IMG/VR virus record: IMGVR_UViG_3300030060_001855
Location: 1-35,025 of that record
Length of the DNA: 35,025 nt
DNA from: a virus
Strand: one strand, 5' to 3'
Shown in pieces: positions 1-26,852 of this stretch. Positions within the stretch are counted from its first letter, which is position 1. Every line of letters starts with the position of its first letter. A program made the position numbers and the translations under genes. The notes beneath the pieces were generated by a model. That model saw only the letters and a list, made by a program, of their open reading frames with translations, was not told where the DNA came from and made no database searches.

Positions 1-67
1 CATAGTTATTTGCCCACCAATAAGCTATTAGGACAATTACAATAAATATTATATCTTTTTCAGACAT
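1..67 (-). CDS. small membrane protein, 3' end outside window
   Basis: An ATG at 67 opens a frame that stays open to the left edge, giving 22 residues: a short polar start (MSEKD) followed by a hydrophobic run with two Trp (IIFIVIVLIAYWWA). This looks like a single membrane-spanning segment. The start lies inside the last codons of the upstream membrane protein (its TGA is at 62-60), the tight overlap used throughout this late region. The function cannot be assigned from so little; a small holin or spanin-like accessory protein is possible but not shown. Confidence 0.45.
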   Translation of the reverse strand, partial: MSEKDIIFIVIVLIAYWWANNY

Positions 68-551
68 CTTGTTGTTTTTTTAACCATATTGCAAAGAATA
101 TTAATCCTATTATTGAACATATTAACAATATTACAAATACAACTTCAATAATTTTTTGTTTTAATTCTTGTCTTTTATAAATAAGTTCTTGCCTTTTTTT
201 ACGAATAGCTCCTTCAGTCTTAATTAGATCATCCCAAGCTTTTACCCCAAACTTAAATTTTACGTATTGTTGCAACTCATATCTTTGCTTTTCAATAGTC
301 TTTTTAGCAACTAAAGATTTCATAGCAGCTTCTTCTACAGAATCACCACTTAACATCTTCTTGTAAAAAGGTACGTTCTCAGGTTTATTAGATTTTACTG
401 CTTGATCTATATCCGAAGAAGCAGACATCCATCTTGATAAATCACCACCCATTTGTTCGATATCACGACCCATAGCAAATGCTTTTTTTAGGTTATTAAA
501 TGCAGCTGTACTTAAACTTACTGCTGTGGCTATAGATGCAGGATCAAGCAT
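60..551 (-). CDS. conserved phage protein with C-terminal membrane anchor
   Basis: This 163-residue protein starts at ATG 551, overlapping the end of the preceding gene by 8 bases. The N-terminal part is mostly helical, with MLDPASIATAVSLSTAAF and a GRDIEQMGGDLSRWM stretch. The centre is highly charged (Lys/Gln/Glu) and probably coiled. Residues about 135-157 form one clear transmembrane helix followed by Lys-Lys, which suggests a long helical domain held at the membrane. I recognise the overall pattern from uncultured marine phage genomes, where it has no assigned function. It sits at the end of the ejection-protein block, so a virion or membrane-channel role is plausible but inferred. Confidence 0.8.
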   Translation of the reverse strand: MLDPASIATAVSLSTAAFNNLKKAFAMGRDIEQMGGDLSRWMSASSDIDQAVKSNKPENVPFYKKMLSGDSVEEAAMKSLVAKKTIEKQRYELQQYVKFKFGVKAWDDLIKTEGAIRKKRQELIYKRQELKQKIIEVVFVILLICSIIGLIFFAIWLKKQQDV

Positions 552-2862
552 ACTGCCTTATTTTATCAATTGTCGATGGAGTTACTGACTTTATAATATC
601 TTGAGCAGATGACGATTGATCTAAACTTGACTGTTCTTCTACAATGGTATCTAAAGCTTCATCTGCTTCTGATGGTGGTGATTCTGCTGTAGTTACAACT
701 GCACCTTGTAACCAGTTTCTACCATCATCAATTCCCATTGATTTTGCCCATCTTTTGTAAATTGGAAGTTTTGAAACACTTGATAAAGTTTCTTCAGATA
801 CACTACCAGTTTGTGCAACTTCATCAATCATTTTTCTAAAGTTAACATTATTAAACAATTCTCCTGCAAGTCCTAATCTATCTTTAGAATTAAATTTTAA
901 TGACGCAAAAATAGTAGCAGCAAGTCCTGATACTACTGGCATACCAGTTAAAGCTCCACCAACTGCACCAATACCACCTTGAATAGCTCTAGAAACTAAA
1001 CTACCTGTCATAAACTTTTCAAGCACACTTTGTGCCTGTATTGAATTAAGTAAAGCTTGATTTGCTTTACCAGTAACATCAACATTTGCTCTGGCTTCTG
1101 TAATTCTTTTAGATATTTCTGCTAATTCATCTAAAACTTTTGTTGTTTCTGGCCCTAATTCTTTTGATATTGCAGTAAATATAGGTTTTTGATCTTTTAA
1201 ATTTTGATATAAAGTACTAAATTGAGATAAACCAAAATTTACATTTCCTTGTATATCTTTTGCTTTAGTTACGTCTTGAATTGCTGTTAGAATTGCTTCT
1301 GTTCTTAATTCTTCTGGTATAGCTTGTAAAATTCTATTTGTATTTGATATGTCACCTTTACCACCAGAAGTAATTGCACCTTTTAATTTTGGAGCTATAG
1401 AACCTTGTAAATCTTTACCTAATATTTTTACAAGAGTTTGCTCTAATTCTTTTCGTTTTACAGTTATACTATTTGCAGTTTTTATTAAATCTTTTACCTC
1501 ATCTCCACCAATACGAATTGCATTAGCAAATTGGTCATCAGTTAGTTTACCATATAGTAATTTTAATTGTCCTGTTGATGTATCTGAATATGGACCTTTA
1601 TTTTTAAAAGCACCATCTCCTATTGATTCTTTTAATCTAAGAAGTCCACCATAAGTTAAATCTTTTCTTTTCAAAATTGTTTTAATTTTAGGATCTAAAG
1701 ATTCAATTCCTTCTTCTTTAATAAGTCTGTTAATTTCATCTAAAGTATTTGTAATATCAACTTTTTCTGTTTTATTAACTAATGCAACAATATTTTTTTC
1801 TGGATTACCATTTATTCTATCAAATAAATCGCCCTCTCTTACTTTTAAACTTTGTTGAGTTGTCTGAAGTGTGTTTCCTATTTTTTCAGATATTGTTGCT
1901 AAATCTGTAGCACCTAGATCTTTAATTATATTATCTGCTTGATTTATAGCATCTTGAACTTCTTGTCTAAATACTGCTTCTGCAACACTACCTTTAACAT
2001 CCCTAGTTATTCCTGCTGATCTTTTTACTAATTGACCTTCAGCAAAAATATCAAATGGTAATTTAAATCCTAAACGATCAGCCATTTCTTTTATTTCTGG
2101 ATTTATTTTTGCTTGTGCAATTAATTTTTCAATCGCTTTATCAGCATTTGCACCACCACCTGAAGCAGATCTAATTAATTTAGCAATCTCCTGTTCATTC
2201 ATTACAGGAGTTTTTGTAGTAATTTTTTTAATAGTAGTAGGCTTTAAACCAGATGGCATGATAGGTCTAAACAATTGTGATGGTGAACCTGCAAATGCTT
2301 CAGGCATAGCCATTACATCATTTGCTAATTTTCTAGCAGAAGATTCATTCATTCCTGCTTTTACAAGTGCATCAGCTATACTACCAACAGTAAAACCAAC
2401 TCCTGCTTCTGCATACCCCAAACCAGTAATTACTGTATTCGCAATTTTTTCTAAAATTGTTTGAGCCATAGGTGGTATATCTAATTGCTTACCACCTTCA
2501 GAATATATATCTACAGTATCAGGAACATCGACAATTTCAGATTTACCTGCTTCTGCAAGTTCTAATCCACTTTTTGCCATATCTTGAGCTATAGATGTAT
2601 CTTTCCCACCTGAAGTAGTATCAGCCATAAATTGTTGAAATATTTCAAATGTTCTTGGACTTACTTGCCCTTCAACTTCACTCTCATCGTAAAAAGGTGG
2701 GGGAGTTCTACCACCACTAGCCATCCAAGATTTTAAATTATCTTCAAAAGTTACTGGTTTCTGTTCAGTTGCAACAACTGGAGCATTATCTTTAAGATTC
2801 TGTTTCTTAATAGAATTAATTTTTTCTTCTAATATTTTTCTTTGTAATTCTTCTGGTGTCAT
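544..2862 (-). CDS. large putative ejection (internal virion) protein
   Basis: This 772-residue protein starts at ATG 2862 in an ATGA overlap with the gene before it. The first 100 residues are polar and probably disordered. A Gly/Ala-rich hydrophobic segment lies around residues 135-165, followed by a long Lys/Glu/Ile-rich helical middle. A second hydrophobic glycine-zipper stretch at about 620-656 contains GGIGAVGGALTG. The C-terminal 100 residues are acidic and Ser-rich. Long helical proteins with membrane-active Gly-rich segments near the end of a podovirus late operon are typical of internal virion proteins that leave the capsid with the DNA and extend the short tail through the envelope. 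No lytic transglycosylase motif was seen. The role is inferred from composition and position. Confidence 0.7.
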   Translation of the reverse strand: MTPEELQRKILEEKINSIKKQNLKDNAPVVATEQKPVTFEDNLKSWMASGGRTPPPFYDESEVEGQVSPRTFEIFQQFMADTTSGGKDTSIAQDMAKSGLELAEAGKSEIVDVPDTVDIYSEGGKQLDIPPMAQTILEKIANTVITGLGYAEAGVGFTVGSIADALVKAGMNESSARKLANDVMAMPEAFAGSPSQLFRPIMPSGLKPTTIKKITTKTPVMNEQEIAKLIRSASGGGANADKAIEKLIAQAKINPEIKEMADRLGFKLPFDIFAEGQLVKRSAGITRDVKGSVAEAVFRQEVQDAINQADNIIKDLGATDLATISEKIGNTLQTTQQSLKVREGDLFDRINGNPEKNIVALVNKTEKVDITNTLDEINRLIKEEGIESLDPKIKTILKRKDLTYGGLLRLKESIGDGAFKNKGPYSDTSTGQLKLLYGKLTDDQFANAIRIGGDEVKDLIKTANSITVKRKELEQTLVKILGKDLQGSIAPKLKGAITSGGKGDISNTNRILQAIPEELRTEAILTAIQDVTKAKDIQGNVNFGLSQFSTLYQNLKDQKPIFTAISKELGPETTKVLDELAEISKRITEARANVDVTGKANQALLNSIQAQSVLEKFMTGSLVSRAIQGGIGAVGGALTGMPVVSGLAATIFASLKFNSKDRLGLAGELFNNVNFRKMIDEVAQTGSVSEETLSSVSKLPIYKRWAKSMGIDDGRNWLQGAVVTTAESPPSEADEALDTIVEEQSSLDQSSSAQDIIKSVTPSTIDKIRQYA

Positions 2863-4223
2863 TGACCTAACTCAGTTAATTGTGCAGATCTAGCAATCCA
2901 AGCTTGAAGTATAGGAGTACTAACACCTGTTGTATCAAAAGCATTTAATTCATCTCTAGTCATTGTTTTTATTCTGTCAATTACAGCTTGATCTTCTTGA
3001 CTAATAGTAGGTTCAATATTTTCAACTGGTTCTGCATCATCTAACGTACTAAATTCAACATCATCTAATCCTAATGTTGATCTCCATGTTCCTTCTTGTT
3101 GCAAACGATCTTTACGATTATAATAATCTTGCATTGTTTTATCACCACCAGAAAGAAATCTTACTAAATCTTGTGTTACTTTTAATAAATTGTTTTTTGA
3201 TTTAAGTCTGGCTTCAAACCATTTTCTTAGATATTCTGGTTGCATGTTTGTAGGTGCAGCTGTGCTCATTGCCATACTTAATTCACCTGCACTCAAAGCT
3301 CCAAAAGTAACTGATCCAACAACATCTAATCCTAGTCTATTAACGACATTATCTAATTCAATAGATGACTGTCTGATGCTTGGCAATAAACTAACAAAAA
3401 ATCCAGATTGAGCACCTTGATCAATCGCACTTATACCTTCTTGATAATTTGTAATATTTTGTTGAAGTCTAGGAATTAATTTCAAACCTTCATCTGCTTG
3501 TTTTTTAGCAACATCAAAAGCTCCTTCTTTTCCTTTTTTCATCCCTGCAATTTCAGCGTCTACTACACCTGTATCTAAAGATACTCTATTAGCTTCCCTA
3601 TTCGCCTTTGCTATTAATTGTTCTATTTGCACAGGATCTGTATAAACTTTGTTTAAAAACTTAACAACCATAGTACCATCTCTTGTTAAGTATTGAACTA
3701 ATCCATTATCCCATTGTGCCAAAACTTTTGCTACATTCCCACCTGGAGTTCCAGTTGTTCTACTTTTAGCTTGTGCCATAAGATATTCAGCAGGACCTTG
3801 AAAACCACCTGCAAAAGAACTTAATAAAGTCGAACCAGGTTTGTTTGCTTCTTCGCCCATCCTAGCAAAATATAAATAGGATAATAAAGCAGGATCTATT
3901 TTAGTCGGTTGAGCAGTTGCCATTGTACCTATATTCAATGCACCTGCATTTGTTGTTGGTTCTGGCAACGCACCTGTATTAGGATCAGGATCAGGAGTAG
4001 GATTAGGATTAGGATTAGGAGTAGGAGTAGGAGTAGGAGTAGGAGTAGGAGTAGGAGTAGGATTATTGTTTGCTTGATCTTGTTTAAATAAATTATAAGA
4101 ACCTAATAATTGATCAACAACAACTCCATCTATATCAACAATATTTCCAGTAAATTCAGGTCGATTTTGTTGCATCCAAATTGAGAATGCATTTAATTCA
4201 GATTGCGATAATTGTGGATTCAT
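2859..4223 (-). CDS. virion-associated protein with Thr-Pro repeat linker
   Basis: This 454-residue protein starts at ATG 4223, with an AGG-type ribosome site overlapping the previous stop. Residues about 1-50 form a short helical head. Then comes a Pro-rich linker of alternating Thr-Pro, Asn-Pro and Asp-Pro dipeptides (about residues 53-80), and after it a helical body. The body holds a TFGALSAGELSMA segment near residue 300 and an FLSGGDKTM segment near residue 360; I recognise this combination from phage virion-associated proteins next to ejection proteins. It lies between two Gly/Ala-rich proteins of the same block, so it is probably carried in the virion. The exact function is unknown. 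The linker resembles a stiff spacer, and its DNA is a hexamer repeat that could change length. Confidence 0.75.
   Translation of the reverse strand: MNPQLSQSELNAFSIWMQQNRPEFTGNIVDIDGVVVDQLLGSYNLFKQDQANNNPTPTPTPTPTPTPTPNPNPNPTPDPDPNTGALPEPTTNAGALNIGTMATAQPTKIDPALLSYLYFARMGEEANKPGSTLLSSFAGGFQGPAEYLMAQAKSRTTGTPGGNVAKVLAQWDNGLVQYLTRDGTMVVKFLNKVYTDPVQIEQLIAKANREANRVSLDTGVVDAEIAGMKKGKEGAFDVAKKQADEGLKLIPRLQQNITNYQEGISAIDQGAQSGFFVSLLPSIRQSSIELDNVVNRLGLDVVGSVTFGALSAGELSMAMSTAAPTNMQPEYLRKWFEARLKSKNNLLKVTQDLVRFLSGGDKTMQDYYNRKDRLQQEGTWRSTLGLDDVEFSTLDDAEPVENIEPTISQEDQAVIDRIKTMTRDELNAFDTTGVSTPILQAWIARSAQLTELGQ
3981..4064. repeat. hexanucleotide tandem repeat coding a Thr/Asn/Asp-Pro linker
   Basis: About fourteen hexamers run in tandem. 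On the plus strand the units are AGGATC, AGGAGT, AGGATT and a homogeneous block of seven AGGAGT units. Read on the minus strand in the frame of the overlapping gene they encode Asp-Pro, Asn-Pro and Thr-Pro. The homogeneous block is a likely site of replication slippage. Any change is a multiple of three, so linker length would vary without breaking the frame. Confidence 0.9.
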
Positions 4224-4229
4224 AATAAT

Positions 4230-5351
4230 TTACCTCGACAATGCGTATGCACTTCCTAAACTTCCTAAACCAGATAACAACTGTGAATAAACACTTGGTG
4301 CTTGCCCACGAGTTTCTCTCATACTTGAAGAATATGATGATGTATCGTATGGAACTCCACTTGCTAATCCAAGTAAGAAATTCAAATCATCATATGGTTT
4401 AGATCTTTGATCTAAGTAATCAGAATATTGTGCATCAAAACCTCTTTGATCTAACATTCTTTCTGCTTCACCTGCTGTAATTAAACCTTGTGCAACTTGA
4501 TTTTTTAGGTTTTCTTGAGTAGTAGCTGCGTCTTGTATAGCTTGTATTTCTTTTAATCTAGATGCTTCGTCAGTTTCATATGCTGATCTCAATGCAGTAT
4601 CAGCATCAAATCTTGCACTTCTATCTGTATCAAATCGACCTGCTGCAAATCCTAATGCATCTGCACCTGCTTGTGCTAATAAATCAGCTTCTGATTGTAT
4701 TCCTTCTGAACCTAAAGTCGCTTCCATTAATCCTAATCTTGAACCACCAAATGCACCTGCTGTAGCTGCTCTATCTCTAGCTGCTTGTTGACCTAATGCA
4801 GTTTGCTCTTGTATTTGCCTTATAGCAGGGTTCATTGCAGCTGTATAAGTATCTAAATAAGGTGACAAATCAGCTTCACTAAAAGTGTCACCTATTAAAT
4901 AATTTCTTAAATATTCATCAGTTGTCATACCTGCAGCTAATGCATCAGCTTCCATACCTGGTGCGTATCCTTGACCTAATCCAGTTAATAAACCATCATC
5001 ACCAGTAATTTGACCCATTAAATCTGAATAATCACCTCTAGTATCCATCAAGATTTTCATAGCTTGCTGTTCAGCAGGACTCATTTTTGATCTTAGCTGA
5101 CCATCAACTGTCATACCTGCAACCCCTGTACCACCTGGAATTACATCATAACTTTTAAATCTTGATCCTGTAAATTCTGGAAAATCTCCACCTATTAAAG
5201 ACATCCCTTGATCAATAATTTGTTTACTAGCATCTGCTAAATAAGTTGGTATTTGCGTACCAGTAATCGTATCGTCAAGTGAAGTACCTGTGATAGTCAT
5301 GTTTGGAGAACTTGCTCCATAACCTGAATAATCTGGAGGAGTAGTTGCCAT
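4230..5351 (-). CDS. Ala/Gly-rich virion protein, putative ejection protein
   Basis: This 373-residue protein begins at ATG 5351 behind a GAGG ribosome site. Its N-terminus is rich in Ser/Thr/Gly/Tyr. The middle is a long Ala/Gln/Asp/Arg-rich helix carrying a GAFGGSRLGLMEA segment around residue 200, which I recognise from internal virion or tail proteins of marine and other phages. The C-terminal 40 residues are Ser/Tyr/Gly-rich. It is one of four consecutive large proteins at the end of the late operon. The low-complexity helix and position favour a structural or ejected protein. No enzymatic motif is visible. Confidence 0.72.
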   Translation of the reverse strand: MATTPPDYSGYGASSPNMTITGTSLDDTITGTQIPTYLADASKQIIDQGMSLIGGDFPEFTGSRFKSYDVIPGGTGVAGMTVDGQLRSKMSPAEQQAMKILMDTRGDYSDLMGQITGDDGLLTGLGQGYAPGMEADALAAGMTTDEYLRNYLIGDTFSEADLSPYLDTYTAAMNPAIRQIQEQTALGQQAARDRAATAGAFGGSRLGLMEATLGSEGIQSEADLLAQAGADALGFAAGRFDTDRSARFDADTALRSAYETDEASRLKEIQAIQDAATTQENLKNQVAQGLITAGEAERMLDQRGFDAQYSDYLDQRSKPYDDLNFLLGLASGVPYDTSSYSSSMRETRGQAPSVYSQLLSGLGSLGSAYALSR

Positions 5352-5355
5352 GATT

Positions 5356-5760
5356 TTACCTCATTCCTGCTAATGCACCCATTTCTTCGGACATAGGTTG
5401 TTGCTGTTGACCACCTGCAACCTGTTCTATAAGTTGCCTTAGTTCTGGTAACAATTTCATTAATACTCTAGCCACATCTGGTGTAATCGCAGAATCTAAT
5501 GCCCTTAATTCTTCTGGTGACATGTTTGTTAATCTAGAAACTAAAACTGCTGATATTTCATTAGATGGTTGCATTAACCTCATTTTAGCTTGATCTGGCA
5601 TATCTGTAGGCATCATTTCCCTACTTGGCATTTGCCTTTCCATCATAGCTCTATCTGGCATTTGTCTTTCCATCATAGCTCTATCTGGCATTTGTCTTTC
5701 CATCATAGCTCTATCTGGCATATTACCCATAGCACCTTTGTCTTTCATCATATCAGCCAT
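5356..5760 (-). CDS. Met-rich protein with three decapeptide repeats
   Basis: This 134-residue protein starts at ATG 5760 after a strong AAGGAG site inside the end of the previous gene. The N-terminal 50 residues are extremely Met-rich and contain three exact MPDRAMMERQ repeats followed by degenerate copies. The remainder (about 55-120) is a conventional helical domain (PSNEISAVLVSRL, PEELRALDSAI) ending in a Gln-rich tail. No family is assigned. Its position between a glycine-zipper protein and an ejection-type protein suggests a virion accessory role. The Met/Arg amphipathic repeat might be membrane- or metal-interacting, but that is speculation. Confidence 0.7.
   Translation of the reverse strand: MADMMKDKGAMGNMPDRAMMERQMPDRAMMERQMPDRAMMERQMPSREMMPTDMPDQAKMRLMQPSNEISAVLVSRLTNMSPEELRALDSAITPDVARVLMKLLPELRQLIEQVAGGQQQQPMSEEMGALAGMR
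5611..5722. repeat. 30-bp in-frame tandem repeat
   Basis: The period is 30 bases. Units at 5641-5670 and 5671-5700 are identical, the unit from 5701 matches over its first 20 bases, and 5611-5640 is a diverged copy. The repeat encodes a Met-Pro-Asp-Arg-Ala-Met-Met-Glu-Arg-Gln decapeptide in the minus-strand gene. Two adjacent identical copies point to recent duplication. Confidence 0.9.
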
Positions 5761-6910
5761 TCTTGTTCTCCTTATAAAGTACAGACCAGTCTGTTGCTTT
5801 TGTAAAAGTACCTAAAAGCCAACAGACAGGCTCTAAGACACGACGATATATTTTACCTAGATAATCTGGTTTTTCTTTTTTACCATAGATATATGCAATT
5901 TCATTTGCTCTATGTGTCGCTATATGTTTCCAAAATTTTATCATTCTACCTTTACGCATTTGTCTAACTACCCATACTGCCCAAAGATGATATCCATTAA
6001 CATGTGTAGGTGTAAGGTAATCCCTTGTAAACTTATAATCCATCAAAACTTGTTCTTTTGTCAATAATCCTTGTTTGTGTAATTCGTTACATATAACTCT
6101 ACCACCTAACATCCCCCCAACAAATCCTGCCAATGCACCACCAACTGGACCTAAAATTGGAGTAAAAATAGCTTGTGCTACATGTTTTGCTACAGCACCT
6201 GCACCTGCTTTTCTGGCTGCACTTGCAGGATCTTCACCCATAGCAAGTTGTACAGCAAAACTACCTACTGCTTGACCACCCATTTGCCCTAATTGAGTTG
6301 GATCAGTAAATATGTCCATTCCTGAAACATCTTTATTAAACATTATATTTGCACCTTGTTGAGCACCTGCTGTTCCTTCTGCAACTGCTTTCCCTGTGCT
6401 TGGATCAAAAAAAGCATCTGTTCCAAAATCCAAAGCACCTTTCCCTGCAAGACCTCCAGGCACTACAGATTTAAAAACATCTTTTCCAGTAATTTCTATA
6501 GCTGAATCACTAAAAGAAGGAGCAAAATATGCACCTGCAGCTGAACCTAAAACACCACCAACACCTTGACCTACAATTCCACTTGCTTGTGCTATCAATT
6601 CCTCTGGTGATGGGAAGTCACTTGGCTGACCATATTTTTCAACAAAGTCCTCATACCTTTTCATCATTGTAGTATCTACATCATCTCTTTCATCATATGT
6701 AGATTCACCAACTTTTATTTTTTGCACCCATTGAAACATGGGTATAGCACCTGTTCCGTATGATGATCCAATTTGGTCTAAAGTTAAGCCACCAAATGTT
6801 TCTCTTGGATCTTGAGATTGCAACTCAAAAAGATCAAATGTTCTTGGCTCAGTAGTCTGATCATCATCATTAGTCTGGTCATCATTAGTAGTTTGATCAT
6901 GACTTGGCAT
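5753..6910 (-). CDS. glycine-zipper virion protein with conserved C-terminal domain
   Basis: This 385-residue protein starts at ATG 6910. Residues 1-25 are Asp/Gln/Thr-rich and disordered. Two Gly/Ala-rich hydrophobic zones follow: around 115-135 (IVGQGVGGVLGSAAGAYFAP) and about 235-270, where GGALAGFVGGMLGG forms a strong glycine-zipper. The last 110 residues form a compact Trp/Tyr/Arg-rich domain beginning VICNELHKQG and including GYHLWAVWVVRQMRKG. I recognise this C-terminal pattern from structural proteins of diverse tailed phages, where it has no settled function. It sits just after the hub-like protein and at the head of the ejection block, so a tail-tip or membrane-penetrating component is likely. 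Confidence 0.75.
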   Translation of the reverse strand: MPSHDQTTNDDQTNDDDQTTEPRTFDLFELQSQDPRETFGGLTLDQIGSSYGTGAIPMFQWVQKIKVGESTYDERDDVDTTMMKRYEDFVEKYGQPSDFPSPEELIAQASGIVGQGVGGVLGSAAGAYFAPSFSDSAIEITGKDVFKSVVPGGLAGKGALDFGTDAFFDPSTGKAVAEGTAGAQQGANIMFNKDVSGMDIFTDPTQLGQMGGQAVGSFAVQLAMGEDPASAARKAGAGAVAKHVAQAIFTPILGPVGGALAGFVGGMLGGRVICNELHKQGLLTKEQVLMDYKFTRDYLTPTHVNGYHLWAVWVVRQMRKGRMIKFWKHIATHRANEIAYIYGKKEKPDYLGKIYRRVLEPVCWLLGTFTKATDWSVLYKENKNG

Positions 6911-6911
6911 G

Positions 6912-7235
6912 TTAACTAACCTCCAATATACTTGCGACTACATGTAGTCTATCTGCTGTTGCTGCTGTAACTTTTAAAATTTCACTTTCTTCTACAACTA
7001 ATGGTGCAGATAATAATTCTAGTGTTTGTTTAGCAGTAACTGCTTTATCTTTATATATACTAAATACTGCTGATGACGAATTAGTCAATGTTAAAGTTAT
7101 AGTATCTGCATTATTTGAATCTTCACTTACCAATATAGATTTGACAATTGCAGTCGTTGCACTTGGACAAGTGTACAAAGTTGTGGCATTTGTAGTCGTT
7201 AAATCAACTTTAGCATTTTTAAATAAATTAGCCAT
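6912..7235 (-). CDS. small beta-rich virion protein
   Basis: This 107-residue protein opens at ATG 7235, overlapping the upstream stop. It is rich in Thr, Ser, Ala and Val with alternating hydrophobic residues (TTLYTCPSATTAIVKSILVS), as expected for a small all-beta sandwich. I recognise the opening MANLFKNAKVDLTTT from marine phage structural proteins. The protein encoded at 15140-15514 has a similar organisation, so the two may share a fold. Its place next to the hub-like protein suggests a tail-associated or decoration protein. The role is inferred. Confidence 0.7.
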   Translation of the reverse strand: MANLFKNAKVDLTTTNATTLYTCPSATTAIVKSILVSEDSNNADTITLTLTNSSSAVFSIYKDKAVTAKQTLELLSAPLVVEESEILKVTAATADRLHVVASILEVS

Positions 7236-7416
7236 TAAACCAAGTCACTGCTTCTGATTGTTCTGTTGCTGATTTGATAATAAAACTTTGTCCAAAATAA
7301 GCTGACCTTTTTTCTAATTCTAAAACATTATTCAATCTTACTTGATAAGTTCTATCATAACTATTTGGTGGTTCTGGTAATCTAGCTAGTGCTAATGGTG
7401 AAGCTTGTTCTGTCAT
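7228..7416 (-). CDS. small conserved phage protein
   Basis: This 62-residue ORF overlaps its neighbours on both sides (ATG 7416 within the previous stop; its own end covers the next start). It contains LPEPPNSYDRTYQVRLNNVLEL, a Pro-rich entry followed by a helix. Similar short proteins sit beside tail genes in many phages. The tight coupling to the 774-aa hub-like gene suggests it is co-produced with it. No function can be assigned. Confidence 0.65.
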   Translation of the reverse strand: MTEQASPLALARLPEPPNSYDRTYQVRLNNVLELEKRSAYFGQSFIIKSATEQSEAVTWFNG

Positions 7417-9737
7417 CTTAACCCATCTTGTTTTGTATTTATTCTAAAAGTTCCCAATGCCCATTGGTCATCAGTTCCTTTACTTTGTACTTTTAAAGAT
7501 ACTTGTCTACCTCTAATCCTTGTACTTATTTTATCAGTTGAAGATAAACTTGTTGTATTTGTGTAACTTAAATTATGTGGACCTTTTAACGAAACGTCAC
7601 CTGTACCCACCCCACCAGAAGTAGGCAATGAAAAAGGAAACTTACTTGCTTTTAAATATAAATCTAAAGATGTACTGTCACTAATACTTACATCAGGTAT
7701 CAAGCGATCAATTAATTGAATGTCATTACCATCAGCAGTAAGTTCTTGTGGAGAACTTTCTATATAAGCATTCATAGCATCTCCATCAGCAGTTGTGCCA
7801 CTTTCATGATTATATAATACCCCATCTGATTCAAAAGCAAAAGGATTATCTCTTGCTCCAAAGGAATCCAACCAACAACTTCTACCCATATTGCCGACAG
7901 TCCATACGTTTAATTCATAGTTATATGAAACATAATTGTTGTTTTCTGGATTGTCATCGTCAGTTAAAGTTGTAACTGAATTAATAGCAGACCTTTTATC
8001 TTGTATTGAAGAACTTACAGTAATTTGTTTACTAATAAATTGCCAATTACCAGTTGGTACAATCGTTGTTTCACTACCAGTCAAATAATTCATAGGATCT
8101 ATTTCTACTTCAATATTGTTTTGATCTGTAACTTTTGTAATAAAAGCTTTTACACTATAACCATTTTTTGAAAAAAGACTAAAAATACCATCTGCATCAC
8201 TATTTTTTGATATCCACACAGGATCTCCAACTTCCCAAGTGTCCACACCTGGTGATGGCCAAGTAATACCACAAGAACTTTTTCCTAATGTTTGAGTAGT
8301 AATGTTACTTGATAAACCTATACTCAAAGAATATTTTTTATTTTTACTTGGGTAAAACCAAGATATTTCTTTGAATTTTTTATTATGACCTGTGACTACT
8401 TTATCTTTATATGCAGAGTGCATCCTATTAAATACATATCTTTGTACTGGACATGCTAGTTCTTTTACACTTCCATCATAAATATAAAAATTCTCACCAC
8501 CCATCCAATATACAATGCTATCAACATTTATCATTGCATTTAAACCTGTTGATGCTGAACCAACAGCCAATAGTCTAAAACTAAATACAAAATCACCCCC
8601 GACAAAAGTCATACCATATACAGCTTCATCTGTTGATATTATTGTTTCTTCTCTAGTGCTAATCATAGATATAATTTTAGAACCTATCTGTAATCTTTGA
8701 TCACCAGAGGTATTAGTCGCAGTTGGTGTCCATTTAGTGTAGTCTTCTTGAGTACTCCAACGAACCAACATTTCATCCATTGTCGATGTTCCTGCTGTAG
8801 TACAACCACCACACACATAATGTCTGTCTGGGAAAGATACAATTGCAGTTCTTGCCTTACTAGGAACGTCAGTTGCACCACCAAGTGAAGATATTAAAAC
8901 TGATCTACTAGTAGGCCCACCAGAGGTATCCCAATAATATAAACCATCATTTCTAATTCCTGCTAATACATCTTCACCCCAAAGATTAATGTGCCAACTA
9001 GAATTTTCTAACACAACAGTTGTACTTCCGACAGTAGCAGGGCTACCCCAACCATCACTACCCCAAGTGCTAATTCCCCAACCAAGAGCAGGAGCTGCTG
9101 ATTGTGTACCTAATCCATTGTCTAAACCTTTAAGATATAAAACATCTAAAGTTGTACCACCACCAGAACTTACTGTGCTAGAAGCTGCACTATCTACTGT
9201 TATGGTATATGAATTAGAATCAACAAGTGTAATTTGATATCCTGATTTTCTATTTAAATCGTCAGCTGCAATACCACCAGTTGCAGTTGCACTTTCTATT
9301 ACAACAAAATCCCCAGTTTTCGCACCATGAGAACTATCTGTAATAGTAACAGTTGTACTTCCATCAGTTGTAGCTAGTGGATTACTTAAATTATTTGTAG
9401 TTTTTCTTAATGGTGTAATATCATATAATACACCATCTTGTATAATATATAAATGACTGTGTGTTCCTAAAACTATTCTATCTTTACCATCTGATAAAGC
9501 TCTCCAAAAAAGCATTTTCCTACCAACACCTTTTGGATTTTCAGCTACACCACTAGCACCACCACTTACTGTCAAACCTTCTATTTCTTCTTTTGCCCAA
9601 CCACCAATTTTTGAAGCATAACCATCTTCAAATCGCACAAGGTTACCATCTACCCAAAAAGGTCCATTTTTACCTGCTGTGTATTCTGTGATATCTTTTA
9701 CGATACCTGCATTAAATTGTAGTAGTTGTAATGGCAT
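7413..9737 (-). CDS. large tail-hub/DNA-stabilisation-like virion protein
   Basis: This 774-residue protein starts at ATG 9737. It opens with MPLQLLQFNAGIVKDIT and a GNLVRFEDGYASKIGGW segment, which I recognise from the large tail proteins of uncultured marine phages. It is beta-rich throughout. A Thr/Ser/Gly-rich insert at about 120-200 resembles an added beta domain, and many Trp-containing repeats follow, consistent with a propeller-like or hub fold. Its size, single copy and closeness to the lysis genes and ejection proteins suggest the tail hub or needle base, analogous in place to P22 gp10 or T7 gp12. The specific family match is not proven here and needs a profile search. Confidence 0.7.
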   Translation of the reverse strand: MPLQLLQFNAGIVKDITEYTAGKNGPFWVDGNLVRFEDGYASKIGGWAKEEIEGLTVSGGASGVAENPKGVGRKMLFWRALSDGKDRIVLGTHSHLYIIQDGVLYDITPLRKTTNNLSNPLATTDGSTTVTITDSSHGAKTGDFVVIESATATGGIAADDLNRKSGYQITLVDSNSYTITVDSAASSTVSSGGGTTLDVLYLKGLDNGLGTQSAAPALGWGISTWGSDGWGSPATVGSTTVVLENSSWHINLWGEDVLAGIRNDGLYYWDTSGGPTSRSVLISSLGGATDVPSKARTAIVSFPDRHYVCGGCTTAGTSTMDEMLVRWSTQEDYTKWTPTATNTSGDQRLQIGSKIISMISTREETIISTDEAVYGMTFVGGDFVFSFRLLAVGSASTGLNAMINVDSIVYWMGGENFYIYDGSVKELACPVQRYVFNRMHSAYKDKVVTGHNKKFKEISWFYPSKNKKYSLSIGLSSNITTQTLGKSSCGITWPSPGVDTWEVGDPVWISKNSDADGIFSLFSKNGYSVKAFITKVTDQNNIEVEIDPMNYLTGSETTIVPTGNWQFISKQITVSSSIQDKRSAINSVTTLTDDDNPENNNYVSYNYELNVWTVGNMGRSCWLDSFGARDNPFAFESDGVLYNHESGTTADGDAMNAYIESSPQELTADGNDIQLIDRLIPDVSISDSTSLDLYLKASKFPFSLPTSGGVGTGDVSLKGPHNLSYTNTTSLSSTDKISTRIRGRQVSLKVQSKGTDDQWALGTFRINTKQDGLR

Positions 9738-22419: not shown

Positions 22420-23319
22420 CTAACCTCTTTGCTGTTTTCTGATTTCAGATTCATATTTTTTAAGACTTCTTTCATCACTAATACCAAGCTGTCGAGCCAT
22501 TTCAAGTTGATCTTTACTCATTCGTACTCTATTGCCCTTGTAAGACGAGCCACCAGTAGAAGGTGCAATTGGTTGTCTACTTTTTACTTTAGCCTTAGTC
22601 GGACTTGATCCTGATACTAATTCAGGAAATACTTTTTGTAAACGATTATTTAATTCACTGTAATAATCGTCAGAATTTTTATCAAAACCTTCCATTTCTA
22701 TTTGGATATCAAAAGACCTTGCCAATGCAGTTTCTCTTTCAAATCCTGGTGAATTAAACCAATTATTCTTCTGCCACCAATCAATAGCTTTAGGTGGTGC
22801 AGGATTTTGAACAGTTTGCTGTGCTTTGCCTACTGTCGGTGAAACAGATTGTTGTTGAGCTTGTTGACGTTGCATTTCTGCAACTCTTAAAGCAGCTCTC
22901 ATATCTGCTAATTGTTCTGTAAAATTAATAGCTGCTTTAGTATCACCTTCTTCAGTAGCTTTTTCTAAAGCTCTTTTTGTTTGGTCATACCTTGTTTTAA
23001 ATTCATTTTGTGCAGATTTTTCTGATCCTTGCTCTAATCTAGATAACCTAGCATTTAATTGAGCATTTTGCTCTTGCATTAATCTAGTTTGTTCTTCTGC
23101 TTCTCTTCTTTGATCAACAAGCTTTTTTATTCTTTTTTGAACTTTATCTCCATAGTCATCTTTTTCTTGTTGCTCTACTGCTTGTTGTTTTTCTTCAGCT
23201 ACGTCTTTAGCTTCTTCCTTTGGATCTTCTGTAATTTCTATTTGAAATTCTTCTGGATCTGCTTGAGCTTTTTTAATTTCATCATTAATTTCATCAATTA
23301 CTTCTTTTTGATCTTGCAT
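22420..23319 (-). CDS. scaffolding-like protein
   Basis: The chosen start is ATG 23319 (MQDQKEV) with GGAG ten bases upstream; extension to a TTG at 23334 would place that ribosome site inside the gene. The 299-residue product is highly acidic at its N-terminus, then forms a long Gln/Glu/Arg coiled coil (about 60-155). An ordered IDWWQKNNWFNSPGFERE segment lies near 180 and the C-terminus is basic (RVRMSKDQLEMARQ...). The acidic coil with a basic C-terminal end, just upstream of the capsid gene, is the usual arrangement of an internal scaffolding protein. Proteolysis on maturation is not demonstrated. Confidence 0.82.
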   Translation of the reverse strand: MQDQKEVIDEINDEIKKAQADPEEFQIEITEDPKEEAKDVAEEKQQAVEQQEKDDYGDKVQKRIKKLVDQRREAEEQTRLMQEQNAQLNARLSRLEQGSEKSAQNEFKTRYDQTKRALEKATEEGDTKAAINFTEQLADMRAALRVAEMQRQQAQQQSVSPTVGKAQQTVQNPAPPKAIDWWQKNNWFNSPGFERETALARSFDIQIEMEGFDKNSDDYYSELNNRLQKVFPELVSGSSPTKAKVKSRQPIAPSTGGSSYKGNRVRMSKDQLEMARQLGISDERSLKKYESEIRKQQRG

Positions 23320-23335
23320 GGTTGCGTTCTCCAAG

Positions 23336-23743
23336 TTATGTCGCTATGTAAGATGTAACTTCTACACTTTCTGGTAAAATAGATGTAATTTCATCATCAT
23401 TTAACAAAAGTAAACGTACACCATTAATTGTAACTTTCTGACCTGCATACTTTCCGTATGTAACTCTGTCACCTTCTTTCGGTACAGTTGTCATTCTCCA
23501 TGACTGCCCAGTATCACGATCTTTATAAGCCAAATCACCCAAAGCCAATACACGACCATGAGCAGTCATATATTCTTCATTATCTTTTGATTGAGATGCC
23601 AGATACAAACCACCTTTAGTTTTCATTTTAACTTGATGAGGTTGTATCAATACTTTCCAATTTAATGGTTTTGGAAGTTGTTGCGTATAAATCGTCTGTT
23701 CAGTCGATTCGTCTTTATATTCTTTGTATACTCTATATCCCAC
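23336..23743 (-). CDS. phage GroES-like co-chaperonin
   Basis: This 135-residue protein starts at GTG 23743 behind GGAAG. The segment LNWKVLIQPHQVKMKTKGG followed by LYLASQSKDNEEYMTAHGRV and ALGDLAYKDRD reads as a Cpn10 fold: an opening beta strand, a mobile-loop region (KMKTKGGLYLA), and a GDRVTYGKYAGQKV strand pair near 90-105. The end LLLLNDDEITSIL matches the usual Cpn10 C-terminus. It should pair with host GroEL, as T4 gp31 does, to fold the capsid protein encoded shortly downstream. The extra 25 residues at the N-terminus and the C-terminal tail are phage-specific. A well-supported call by motif, unverified by profile. Confidence 0.85.
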   Translation of the reverse strand: MGYRVYKEYKDESTEQTIYTQQLPKPLNWKVLIQPHQVKMKTKGGLYLASQSKDNEEYMTAHGRVLALGDLAYKDRDTGQSWRMTTVPKEGDRVTYGKYAGQKVTINGVRLLLLNDDEITSILPESVEVTSYIAT

Positions 23744-23779
23744 TTTTACTTCCTTTCTCTTGCATGGTGATGAGTCATG

Positions 23780-23977
23780 TTATTCATCCTCTTTATCTAA
23801 TTTTTTCATTGTATCATCGATAATTTCAGAAGCTTGTGTTAATCCCTCTGCAATACCAACGTGTTTATGATATGATTCAAAATCGGAAATACGACCTTCA
23901 ATCATCCCCTTCGCTATTTCTAGCTTCTTCTGTTCCAGATTTTCTTTTATCTTCTGCAACAGGTCTGTTATCGTCAT
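23780..23977 (-). CDS. small helical protein
   Basis: This 65-residue protein starts at ATG 23977 behind a GGGGG site. It is almost entirely helical and charged: LLQKIKENLEQKKLEIAKGM, then a turn and ASEIIDDTMKKLDKEDE. It may be a small coiled-coil assembly factor. It overlaps the end of a shorter upstream ORF by 80 bases in another frame, which is unusual even in this compact region. Function unknown. Confidence 0.65.
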   Translation of the reverse strand: MTITDLLQKIKENLEQKKLEIAKGMIEGRISDFESYHKHVGIAEGLTQASEIIDDTMKKLDKEDE

Positions 23978-24044
23978 TTCTTACACCCCCTGACATTGAA
24001 ACACCAGTTACGTGTATGACTACATCTTTTTTATTATCAGTCAT
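23898..24044 (-). CDS. possible 48-aa protein overlapping the next gene
   Basis: The ATG at 24044 shares a TAATG junction with the basic ORF before it. The product begins MTDNKKDVVIHVTGVSMSGG, with a plausible hydrophobic core strand, and then becomes polar and disordered through the part that overlaps the following gene out of frame. The coupled start favours translation. The long overlap argues for caution, since only the first 22 codons are free of it. Confidence 0.45.
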   Translation of the reverse strand: MTDNKKDVVIHVTGVSMSGGVRNDDNRPVAEDKRKSGTEEARNSEGDD

Positions 24045-24157
24045 TAATAACCCTTTTTCTTACCACCTTTTTTCTTACCACCTTTTTTCTTTGTGCCTTT
24101 ATGCATCATCTTTTTAGCTCCTTCTAAAAGTTTTGAAAATTTTGATCTTAATAACAT
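24044..24157 (-). CDS. tiny Lys/Gly-repeat basic protein
   Basis: The frame opens at ATG 24157 (37 aa) or, more probably, at ATG 24109 (21 aa), which has a strong AAGGAGC site. The C-terminal part is a KKKGG repeat ending in GKKKGY, encoded by a tandem 15-base repeat. It is extremely basic and should bind nucleic acid or an acidic partner non-specifically. It belongs to the scattered set of tiny basic late proteins here. Confidence 0.5.
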   Translation of the reverse strand: MLLRSKFSKLLEGAKKMMHKGTKKKGGKKKGGKKKGY

Positions 24158-24197
24158 AATGACACAAAGATAACATTTATAAAAAATATTTCAAGTT

Positions 24198-24548
24198 TTA
24201 AAATCCATAAGCATCGCAATAAGCATCTGATCCATAACAAGGCTCATCTTCTTCCCAAAGATACTCATTAAGCTTTCCACCATTATCAACATGTGATTTC
24301 ATTTTATCAAATAAAACGCTCATTGTTTGCTCAAGAATTTCTCTAGCTTTAGTTGTATCTCCTTCAGCTTTTTTAATAAAATCTGAAAGAAGAAAAACTT
24401 TGTTATGATTCCATCTATTACCTCTAGAATCTTCTGCTTGTGTACAATAACCCTCGTAATGGATCTCTGTGCCATCTTCATCTCTACCTGCACGATACAA
24501 CCAAGTGTTTGTGTAAAAAAATAATCCTTTTGCTGCTGTTATATTCAT
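24198..24548 (-). CDS. hypothetical protein with acidic, Cys-containing C-terminus
   Basis: This 116-residue protein starts at ATG 24548, two bases after the previous stop, behind AAAGGA. It contains LFFYTNTWLYRAGRDEDGTE near the N-terminus, a helical middle (SDFIKKAEGDTTKAREILEQ), and an acidic tail with two Cys (EDEPCYGSDAYCDAYGF). No family is recognised. It lies just downstream of the divergent promoter and so belongs to the first genes expressed from it. Confidence 0.65.
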   Translation of the reverse strand: MNITAAKGLFFYTNTWLYRAGRDEDGTEIHYEGYCTQAEDSRGNRWNHNKVFLLSDFIKKAEGDTTKAREILEQTMSVLFDKMKSHVDNGGKLNEYLWEEDEPCYGSDAYCDAYGF

Positions 24549-24549
24549 T

Positions 24550-24678
24550 TTATATTTCCTTTCTTAAAAATGACTTGCCTTGCTGTCTTGCTTTTTTATT
24601 ACCTTTTCTCTTTAAAGCTTTTTCCCAACCTCTAGAAGAGCTGTGAGTTTTTCCTCTACCTTTTATTCCTTTTGCCAT
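24550..24678 (-). CDS. 42-aa basic protein, first gene behind divergent promoter
   Basis: ATG 24678 follows an AGAAAGGAAAC site that is nearly identical to the one before the plus-strand gene at 24851. The product is MAKGIKGRGKTHSSSRGW followed by a Lys/Arg helix (ALKRKGNKKARQQG), a strongly basic peptide likely to bind nucleic acid. It is the first minus-strand gene after the promoter at 24733-24706. Function unknown. Confidence 0.65.
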   Translation of the reverse strand: MAKGIKGRGKTHSSSRGWEKALKRKGNKKARQQGKSFLRKEI

Positions 24679-24695
24679 TTTGTTTCCTTTCTAAA

Positions 24696-24711
24696 TATAC
24701 GAATCAGTATA
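24696..24711. promoter_or_regulatory. operator-like site over the leftward promoter
   Basis: TATAC, six bases, then GTATA form an inverted repeat here, containing the 13-mer ACGAATCAGTATA that recurs in direct orientation at 24804-24816. It covers the -10 of the leftward promoter, where a bound repressor would block initiation. The binding protein is inferred to be the winged-helix product of 24851-25090. Confidence 0.6.
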
Positions 24712-24733
24712 CCAGAAATAAAATCTTTGTCAA
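24706..24733 (-). promoter_or_regulatory. sigma70-type promoter, leftward
   Basis: On the minus strand TTGACA (24733-24728) is followed after 16 bases by TATACT (24711-24706), a near-consensus pair. The first downstream gene starts at 24678. It would transcribe the small genes, chaperonin, scaffold and capsid cluster up to the terminator at 20420. The -10 element lies within an operator-like repeat. Confidence 0.8.
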
Positions 24734-24791
24734 GTGCTAGGGATAAAATAAATTTATAATAAATGAATACAATAACTTATATTATTAAAAC

Positions 24792-24820
24792 TTGACAAAC
24801 AAAACGAATCAGTATATATT
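24792..24820 (+). promoter_or_regulatory. consensus sigma70-type promoter, rightward
   Basis: TTGACA (24792-24797), a 17-base spacer and TATATT (24815-24820) make an almost perfect housekeeping promoter 31 bases before the ATG at 24851. An AT-rich stretch lies just upstream. It should be active immediately on infection with host RNA polymerase. Confidence 0.88.
24804..24816. promoter_or_regulatory. second copy of operator-like 13-mer over the rightward promoter
   Basis: An exact copy of ACGAATCAGTATA lies in the spacer of the rightward promoter and overlaps its -10 by two bases. The upstream half of the inverted repeat is degenerate here, so binding may be weaker than at the left copy. The two copies are 105 bases apart (ten helical turns), a spacing compatible with looping. 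Confidence 0.6.
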
Positions 24821-24850
24821 AGATTTATAAGTTTTGAGAAAGGAAACAAA

Positions 24851-25090
24851 ATGAAACTCACAAGCAAAGAAATTAAAGTTTTAAAAGCAATCGCAACAAA
24901 TGATTGTGGAGTGTTTTTAAAAGAAATCAAAGAATTTACAGATTTTAATGACCAAGTAATTGGTGGTGTTATTTCCTCTTTAGAAGATAAATTGTTTGTA
25001 GATGTAGTTAGAGGTCAAGCTGACAATGGTAAGGTTCTTTATCAGCACAGATGTGAACATGAAGAATTAGTTAATCTAGGTATTAAATAA
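24851..25090 (+). CDS. small winged-helix DNA-binding regulator
   Basis: This 79-residue protein starts at ATG 24851 behind AGAAAGGAAAC. Residues 4-15 (TSKEIKVLKAIA), 20-30 and 32-46 (DFNDQVIGGVISSLE) form a helix-turn-helix pattern with the third helix as recognition helix. Residues 47-66 (KLFVDVVRGQADNGKVLYQ) can be the beta wing. The C-terminal 12 residues include Cys68 and His70. It resembles small MarR/wHTH phage regulators in outline, without a named family. Being first behind the rightward promoter and beside repeated operator-like sites, it probably controls the divergent promoters, including itself. DNA binding is predicted, not shown. Confidence 0.75.
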   Translation: MKLTSKEIKVLKAIATNDCGVFLKEIKEFTDFNDQVIGGVISSLEDKLFVDVVRGQADNGKVLYQHRCEHEELVNLGIK

Positions 25091-25102
25091 ATGGTAATTA
25101 AC

Positions 25103-25120
25103 TGGGGGAGAAATCCCCCA
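25103..25120. promoter_or_regulatory. GAAA-tetraloop hairpin between the two plus-strand genes
   Basis: TGGGGGA-GAAA-TCCCCCA forms a 7-bp GC-rich stem with a GNRA loop 12 bases after the regulator stop. No T-tract follows on either strand, so it is not a standard terminator. It may be an attenuator, an RNA stabiliser or a processing site that sets the ratio of the two genes. Confidence 0.65.
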
Positions 25121-25143
25121 CCAACTTTAGAAAGGAGTCTATC

Positions 25144-25410
25144 ATGGACAATCAATACTGGAATTTAAAAAAGATCGCAAATGCTTGTGATCTCAAGTTA
25201 ATTAAAGTTCCTAAATCTCAACGACTTGACTGCGATTTTCCTTATTGTCTTTTTCGTATTGGCGAAACTATGCATGATGCTGTTGCTTGTTGTAACACTT
25301 TAGATGAAGTCACTCAAGCACTCTGCAATCATATTTTGTACAAGACAACTGCTGACGTTAATCGTGGCATTTATCTTCATAAAGAAAAAGGTATTGAGAA
25401 ATACCGATAA
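25144..25410 (+). CDS. hypothetical protein of the plus-strand island
   Basis: This 88-residue protein starts at ATG 25144 with AAAGGAG, a strong site. It is helical with several Cys (CDLKLIKV; DCDFPYCLF; AVACCNTLDEV) and ends in a Lys/Tyr-rich tail. No family is recognised. It is co-transcribed with the winged-helix regulator and ends two bases before the stop of the convergent minus-strand gene. An early host-takeover or anti-host role is possible by position only. Confidence 0.65.
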   Translation: MDNQYWNLKKIANACDLKLIKVPKSQRLDCDFPYCLFRIGETMHDAVACCNTLDEVTQALCNHILYKTTADVNRGIYLHKEKGIEKYR

Positions 25411-25412
25411 CT

Positions 25413-26852
25413 TTATTCTGGTGTCTTGCCATCGTCAACAAATGGTAAGACACCAAGTGGAATACCGAACTTTAAATTATTAATATCTTTTAAAAGAGGA
25501 TCAAAAATAGCACTTGTATATCTAGCAGATTGTGGATTCTGAATTAATACTCTTTCATCTTGTGGTTTATCAATGTCTGAAAAAACAATGTCATCATCTC
25601 TAATCGGACCTGAACTTTTTGGAATACCAAGTGATTGATTAATATTATCTTGCAAATCATAAACACCACCTTTTGCACCACGATCAATAATATTTTTAAA
25701 ATTTAAAATTCTTGGTTTTCCATCTTCTTCTCCTACTCTTCTTAAATAATAAGATATACCATCAGTTGATAGTTCATTATCTATTTTACCTTTTACTAAT
25801 TCTGGAAAAGTTTCTTCAAATGATTTTTCTGCACCACCATCAATTGAAACAGTCATATCATCAACTTTTAATTGATTAAAGTTTTGACCTTTTGCATCTA
25901 TTGTTATTTCTTGTTGTCCTAATCGTTTGCTAGTGACCAACTCTGCTATTTCACCTGATGTTGGGAAGTCAGCATATGTAGATGCAATAAAAGGTGATTT
26001 AGACATATAAACTTCTTCGCCTAATGTACTACCAAGTTCTTCAGGATCATATTTACTAAATCTACCTCTATAATAAATATCATCAACATCAAAACCAAGC
26101 TCTATAGCTCTTTGCATTCTTGATTCTTTATCTAAAGGTAAATCATAATTTTTATAAAGATAATCATAATCTAATTTTTGAACCAAGTTATTTACAAATC
26201 TTTTTTCATTATCATTAAGAACTCTATCTTCTTTTCTAGCTTGCTTAATAAAATCTAAAAAGAATTGTGTTTGTAGTTGTTTTGGATTTAAATCTTTGTA
26301 TTTATTTTTTGTTTCAGTATATATATCATCAGATGTTTTAACTGATCCTTTGTTTTTTAAATTTTTAGCAAAATCAATTACTTTAGGAGTAACACGAGAT
26401 GCACCAAATAATAAAGGCCCTGCTACACCACCAATGATAGCACCTGTAGCTCCTTCTGATATTCTATCTCTTGTTCCTTCTCCACTTAAAAAACCTTCAG
26501 TAAAACCTGCAAGTGCTCCAACACCTGTTGATTTTAAATAACCAATGCCTTGCAATAATCTTGGTGCAGAAATACCTAAAGTTGGTGCAACACCTGCAAA
26601 AAATAATGCTGTGCTTTTCTCTGGATTATCTTCATCAAACTTTTTTAAACTTTCTCTAATGACATTTAAATTTTCGCTATATGATTTGTCACCAATAACA
26701 CTTCTAAGATATGCTTCTAATTCATCAGCAGAACCAAAACTTGCACCTTGACCCATAGTTCTTGCCATGCCAACAAGATCTTTTTTCAAATCTTCATTGT
26801 AAATATCGCTAAATGTAGAACCTTCTGGTAAAGCACCAACTATCTGAACCAT
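25413..26852 (-). CDS. putative ejected protein with ADP-ribosyltransferase-like C-terminus
   Basis: This 479-residue protein starts at ATG 26852 (TAATG overlap, GGAGG site). GASFGSADELEAYLRS (36-51) is a motif I recognise from phage ejection proteins. A hydrophobic Gly-rich span at about 108-152 (VGALAGFTEGFLSG; GAIIGGVAGPLLFGAS) could insert in membrane. From 248 the sequence fits ADP-ribosyltransferases of phage polyvalent proteins: AIELGFDVDDIYYRG (R262), VYMSKSPFIASTYA (281-294), and VLIQNPQSARYTSAIFDP followed by INNL (435-460). This suggests a toxin-like effector delivered with the DNA. The catalytic Glu was not identified, so activity is uncertain. Its 3' end meets the plus-strand island tail to tail. 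Confidence 0.68.
   Translation of the reverse strand: MVQIVGALPEGSTFSDIYNEDLKKDLVGMARTMGQGASFGSADELEAYLRSVIGDKSYSENLNVIRESLKKFDEDNPEKSTALFFAGVAPTLGISAPRLLQGIGYLKSTGVGALAGFTEGFLSGEGTRDRISEGATGAIIGGVAGPLLFGASRVTPKVIDFAKNLKNKGSVKTSDDIYTETKNKYKDLNPKQLQTQFFLDFIKQARKEDRVLNDNEKRFVNNLVQKLDYDYLYKNYDLPLDKESRMQRAIELGFDVDDIYYRGRFSKYDPEELGSTLGEEVYMSKSPFIASTYADFPTSGEIAELVTSKRLGQQEITIDAKGQNFNQLKVDDMTVSIDGGAEKSFEETFPELVKGKIDNELSTDGISYYLRRVGEEDGKPRILNFKNIIDRGAKGGVYDLQDNINQSLGIPKSSGPIRDDDIVFSDIDKPQDERVLIQNPQSARYTSAIFDPLLKDINNLKFGIPLGVLPFVDDGKTPE

Follow-up and report, generated by a model that had tools for sequence, protein, structure and literature searches.

Transcription control in marine phages has been little studied. 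In the lambda CI/Cro switch, divergent promoters carry the same site over each of them, an arrangement shared by the locus described here; unlike lambda, however, the locus has no conserved repressor gene beside its operator-like sites, and the regulator-like neighbour that does occur there is optional. In T4-type cassettes, small genes that can be exchanged sit between promoter blocks and hairpins, again as in the present locus. Such mobile regulatory cassettes, cited in PMC4177764, consist of an early promoter and a stem-loop; the divergent pair with its shared 13-mer sets the present locus apart. Phage moron loci, for example P22 pid (PMC3573128), are comparable in that small accessory genes form a locus of their own in the late region but differ from an island in which two divergent operons lie under one operator-like site and genes are exchanged on both sides; lysogeny is not known here.

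The DNA analysed is a viral contig of 35 kb with a GC content of 35% (the window, meaning the whole stretch of 35,025 nucleotides), and it carries mostly late genes in the leftward direction, among them those for terminase, portal, GroES, capsid and tail proteins. Its closest named relatives are the roseophages CRP-901 and CRP-902, with 67-69% DNA identity in parts. The window and the CRP-901-type phages have a related late cluster (groES, scaffold, capsid), but no such divergent island lies next to groES in CRP-901/902. These two phages encode no RNA polymerase (PMC10149686) and would thus rely on host transcription. The window comes from a marine phage related to CRP-901, and its island sits inside the late gene cluster. 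Judged from its sequence, the island is a real, conserved regulatory core that had been assigned to the wrong neighbour; it is made up of accessory genes under divergent promoters that are apparently co-regulated.

Divergent promoters and a shared 13-mer

The core of the island is a pair of outward-facing promoters that match sigma70 elements closely, P_L and P_R, and sequence and scans place both exactly where the preliminary description had put them (Table 1). Under the strict definition TTGACA-N16-18-TATANT the window contains no match other than these two, where 200 shuffles give 0.235 on average; under a relaxed definition the region shows no enrichment (15 versus 12.4), with P_L and P_R as its two best sites. 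The two identical 13-mers 105 bp apart, separated by a gap of 92 bp, are likewise confirmed, and the window holds no further copy at one mismatch or fewer. Both had been described as overlapping a -10 region, which is true of the left copy, as it covers the -10, but true of the right copy by only 2 bases. The nearly identical ribosome sites of the two leading genes are also there, both leaders having AGAAAGGAAACAAAATG in common.

Table 1. Features of the island and its surroundings, in window coordinates.
Feature	Position	Strand	Remarks
GroES co-chaperonin	23336..23743	-	Leads into scaffold/capsid cluster with 65-aa gene
65-aa gene	23780-23977		With GroES leads into scaffold/capsid cluster
groES/capsid promoter TTGAAA-N16-TATCTT, extended -10 TG	24167..24194	-	Scan
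116-aa protein, phrog_1507	24198..24548	-	Related proteins encoded in terminal repeats of jumbo phages
42-aa basic protein, first leftward gene	24550..24678	-	Another small basic ORF instead in L026
Left 13-mer ACGAATCAGTATA, operator-like	24699..24711	+	Over -10 and toward +1 of P_L
P_L -10 TATACT, extended TG	24706..24711	-	N16 spacer; TATAGT in clade B
P_L -35 TTGACA	24728..24733	-	Sequence and scan; invariant in all 11 contigs keeping P_L
58 bp between -35 boxes	24734..24791		Bounded by inverted repeat TTTGTCAAGT...ACTTGACAAA
P_R -35 TTGACA	24792..24797	+	Sequence and scan
Right 13-mer ACGAATCAGTATA, operator-like	24804..24816	+	P_R spacer into -10
P_R -10 TATATT	24815..24820	+	N17 spacer
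79-aa probable winged-helix protein, right variable slot	24851..25090	+	Weak wHTH profile matches; identical in L003
Hairpin TGGGGGA-GAAA-TCCCCCA, gap between slot gene and p88	25103..25120	+	Missing where slot gene is missing
p88, constant gene of rightward operon	25144..25410	+	Present in every readable contig

Relative to transcription, the 13-mers stand in opposite orientation and at different offsets in P_L and P_R, so that plain promoter duplication does not explain them and an operator or binding site is favoured over a copied promoter. The divergent near-consensus pair with one conserved site over each promoter has a layout that supports co-regulation by a single DNA-binding protein.

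Both promoters and both 13-mers, the latter with at most one G/C change, recur in 10 other marine IMG/VR contigs, and two more (L003 and L116) keep only the right 13-mer. With the window, the carriers of the complete pair number 11 and fall into two clades, A and B, with about 83% overall identity. Between the window and clade B, the -35 boxes match at 6/6 and the 13-mers at 12-13/13 positions, whereas the 58-bp segment that separates these boxes agrees at just 25-28/58 and cannot be aligned in the forward direction. Within the 13-mer only position 11 varies, between G and C; the contigs of relatives that hold the pair have no 13-mer elsewhere. This conservation is the strongest support for the observation being more than chance.

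The same data bear on a plainer reading, namely that there is no operator: two ordinary constitutive sigma70 promoters would share the 13-mer as a coincidence or relic, retained through its overlap with promoter bases and the short time elapsed. Its TATA does lie within each -10, so part of its conservation is mere promoter conservation; when the 171-bp intergenic region is dinucleotide-shuffled, 63 of 20000 sequences (0.3%) contain a repeated 13-mer of any kind. The sample moreover comprises two clades only, made up of contigs that are not independent of each other, and no binder was identified among the genes examined. What speaks against coincidence is the ACGAATCA part of the 13-mer, which is clear of the hexamers in P_R and, for all but its last base, in P_L, yet is invariant in every copy while adjoining spacer bases vary. 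We consider the absence of any operator unlikely.

Only after reverse-complementing does the central segment of clade B align with that of clade A. When window positions 24734-24791 were compared with L009, L015, L016, L017 and L026, the inverted alignment scored 15, a value that none of 2000 shuffles reached (their maximum was 12), and the forward alignment stayed at shuffle level. The breakpoints coincide with the -35 boxes, themselves an inverted repeat, and the inversion exchanges which promoter has AT-rich DNA upstream. One old inversion, through a hairpin or template switching, would be the simplest cause; both orientations were never seen within one clade, and a working switch is therefore not indicated. 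Helical phasing, suggested by the 105/104 bp spacing of about ten turns, was dismissed because an inversion by itself preserves length. A separate trace of recombination is found in L011 (positions 1-7733), whose island part matches L009 of clade B at 100% and whose sequence from inside groES onward matches L012 of clade A at 99-100%; unless it is an assembly chimera, L011 is apparently an island exchange, that is, a natural chimera.

Exchangeable genes around a constant core

The preliminary description had read the locus as an autoregulated switch: the 79-aa winged-helix protein, whose gene heads the rightward operon of the window, would bind the 13-mers and repress or switch P_L and P_R. 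The gene itself is a real open reading frame, and its winged-helix fold is probable rather than proven. Profile matches are weak (SarA/Rot 0.011, TFIIE alpha 0.017, TrmB 0.13), and the match to TIGR01889, at 4.7e-4, falls far below that profile's cut-off; the structure model is poor (pLDDT 65) and does not confirm the fold, its structure search gave no credible match, and a comparison with PDB sequences gave none. Isolated phages were searched for proteins related to p88 or to the 79-aa protein, with none found, and CRP-902 gp02, annotated as TrmB, has no detectable relationship to the 79-aa protein.

It is the distribution of the gene that tells against autoregulation. Among 12 readable contigs with the same P_R and 13-mer, only the window and L003 have the 79-aa gene as first right-hand gene, and it is missing from the other 10. 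The right slot holds a 79, 76, 74, 66+64, 66+70 or 64 aa protein, or none; the other slot proteins lack evident similarity to the 79-aa protein, and promoter and 13-mer are unchanged above them. In L013 and L116 the slot is empty and p88 stands directly behind the leader. Sequence identity between contigs stops at the ribosome site or the start codon, which means that the promoter block stays constant while the gene changes. Present in a minority of carriers, the 79-aa gene is no general partner of the invariant site, and the constant regulator-operator linkage of a lambda CI/Cro-type switch is not found. Autoregulation by this neighbour is, on these grounds, very unlikely, and the case may serve as a warning against naming a regulator by adjacency alone.

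If a gene of the island did encode the binder, further candidates would be those that are nearly constant in the operons, p88 or the 42-aa basic protein, either of which would autoregulate the island. p88 follows the slot in all readable contigs and is the only right-hand gene of which this is true, and the 42-aa protein is strongly basic. On the other hand, the moderate-confidence structure model of p88 (pLDDT 76) contains no helix-turn-helix and has no structural match; L003, L116 and L026 lack the 42-aa protein, and its gene lies under 13-mer-free promoters in L022, L101 and L104-L106. Binding by either protein is quite unlikely. The hairpin between slot gene and p88 has a folding energy that is by itself unexceptional (z -0.9 to -1.6).

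On the left, one slot swap was seen, in L026; L003 and L116 lack P_L and the left 13-mer together with the 42-aa and 116-aa genes. Within the late cluster the island has its own promoters, in part on the opposite strand, and both its presence and its content vary among close relatives. By a strict consensus, no intrinsic terminator was found in 23300-26000; as some accessory loci do without one, the term accessory-gene island is preferred here to classical moron. With a fixed promoter-operator core and genes swapped on both sides, it is a natural experiment, and a clean one, on the way in which phages take up small genes of unknown function.

A proposed binder encoded elsewhere, or a possible host mark

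The reading that we favour, and hold to be moderately probable, is that the 13-mers form a shared repressor-type site for a protein encoded elsewhere, within an island of exchangeable cargo. The core would be two divergent promoters for host sigma70 with one 13-mer over each; a binder, most likely encoded in the part of the genome missing from the 35-kb contig, would occupy the 13-mers and block RNA polymerase at both promoters, repression being assumed rather than activation, so that both short operons would be switched together. The promoter-adjacent genes (the 79-aa gene on the right and, with its one swap, the 42-aa gene on the left) would be the cargo, probably expressed early, and the groES/capsid cluster would be served mainly by its own promoter downstream. 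If the operator is real, its binder would act as a phage-wide regulator and control accessory genes that are probably host-directed.

Wider searches were made with parts of the motif. TTGACA-N5-8-ACGAATCANTATA, scanned in genome contigs as a possible host regulon, gave 28 scattered matches against an estimated 30 or so expected by chance, with no alphaproteobacterial cluster. For ACGAATCA as a general phage promoter motif, a scan of viral DNA gave no informative signal: among the matches listed, the reversed control did not set it apart and the spacing peak came from one coding family. Copies of ACGAATCA with promoters in the outgroups L035, L098 and L111 may be coincidences, given that the 8-mer is common in viral DNA.

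A different explanation places control of the island with the host. The invariant GAATC of the 13-mer, at 24701 and 24806 within both core promoters, is a GANTC site that host CcrM would methylate, and GcrA or methylation would gate P_L and P_R. GANTC is methylated in Pelagibacter and has been noted in regulatory regions there (PMC9516812), and methylated GANTC at Caulobacter promoters recruits GcrA (PMC3667746). A random 13-mer of the window contains GANTC with a probability of about 0.02, and the word is strongly depleted in CRP-901 and CRP-902 (61 versus 173 and 50 versus 174 expected). In the window, however, the depletion is just mild (71 versus 93), and conservation of the 13-mer reaches beyond GANTC, the N of which is always A. 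Neither the capsid promoter nor the cassette promoters of L022, L101, L104 and L106 contain the word, and the GANTC of the CRP-901 early promoter is not retained in CRP-902. Methylation control of both promoters appears highly improbable, and we give slightly less credence to the form in which the constant core is gated by a host cell-cycle mark (GANTC, CcrM/GcrA) and the docked genes follow the methylation state of the phage DNA. Enrichment of GANTC between genes was looked for and is absent (83 observed, 118 expected). The depletion in CRP-901 and CRP-902 (L095 and L121), to about a third of expectation, is an observation in its own right; most other words of like make-up are not depleted there, and it suggests avoidance of host methylation.

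The capsid cluster and the leftward genes

The divergent pair had also been proposed to time expression of the capsid cluster, which does not agree with what is found to the left of P_L. Downstream of the island, in the gap that separates the 116-aa gene from the groES cluster, there is a separate promoter that, by its sequence, would serve the cluster; it is conserved in clade A and clade B (TTGAAA...TGTTATCCT in the latter) and occurs in altered form in L022 and L035, both of which lack the 13-mer. L003 and L116, which have lost P_L and the left 13-mer, retain both this promoter and the cluster. Timing of the capsid genes by P_L is unlikely, and P_L would not be needed for it; the stretch from the 116-aa gene to groES yielded no terminator, so P_L may still add capsid transcripts. 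The favoured reading, a shared site with its binder encoded elsewhere, would leave capsid timing to the downstream promoter.

The leftward genes have a history of their own. In L101 and L104-L106 the 42-aa and 116-aa genes lie upstream of terminase under other promoters, which indicates that these genes travel, and in some relatives their orientation is reversed. Terminal repeats of jumbo phages are the usual territory of early genes. Proteins of the phrog_1507 type occur in the terminal repeats of the jumbo phages CcrSC and Muenster (MH588547, MT708547) as well as at 24198-24548 of the window; from these relatives we infer an early, host-directed role for the 116-aa family, which is a candidate host-takeover family. 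Upstream of the 42-aa gene in L101, L104, L105 and L106, between the leftward genes and terminase, there is a long, divergent, non-coding region rich in TTACCGA/GGTAAC repeats, which may be an operator array or an origin.

Repeats of another kind mark the structural genes of the window. Short in-frame tandem repeats occur at 3993-4070 and 5636-5720 (a PTPTPT-type run and a 30-bp repeat), and between 11784 and 15129 several successive open reading frames are built of one RGxFxGG...YITIASTGNATDFGDL repeat, probably encoding propeller-like tail or adhesion proteins.
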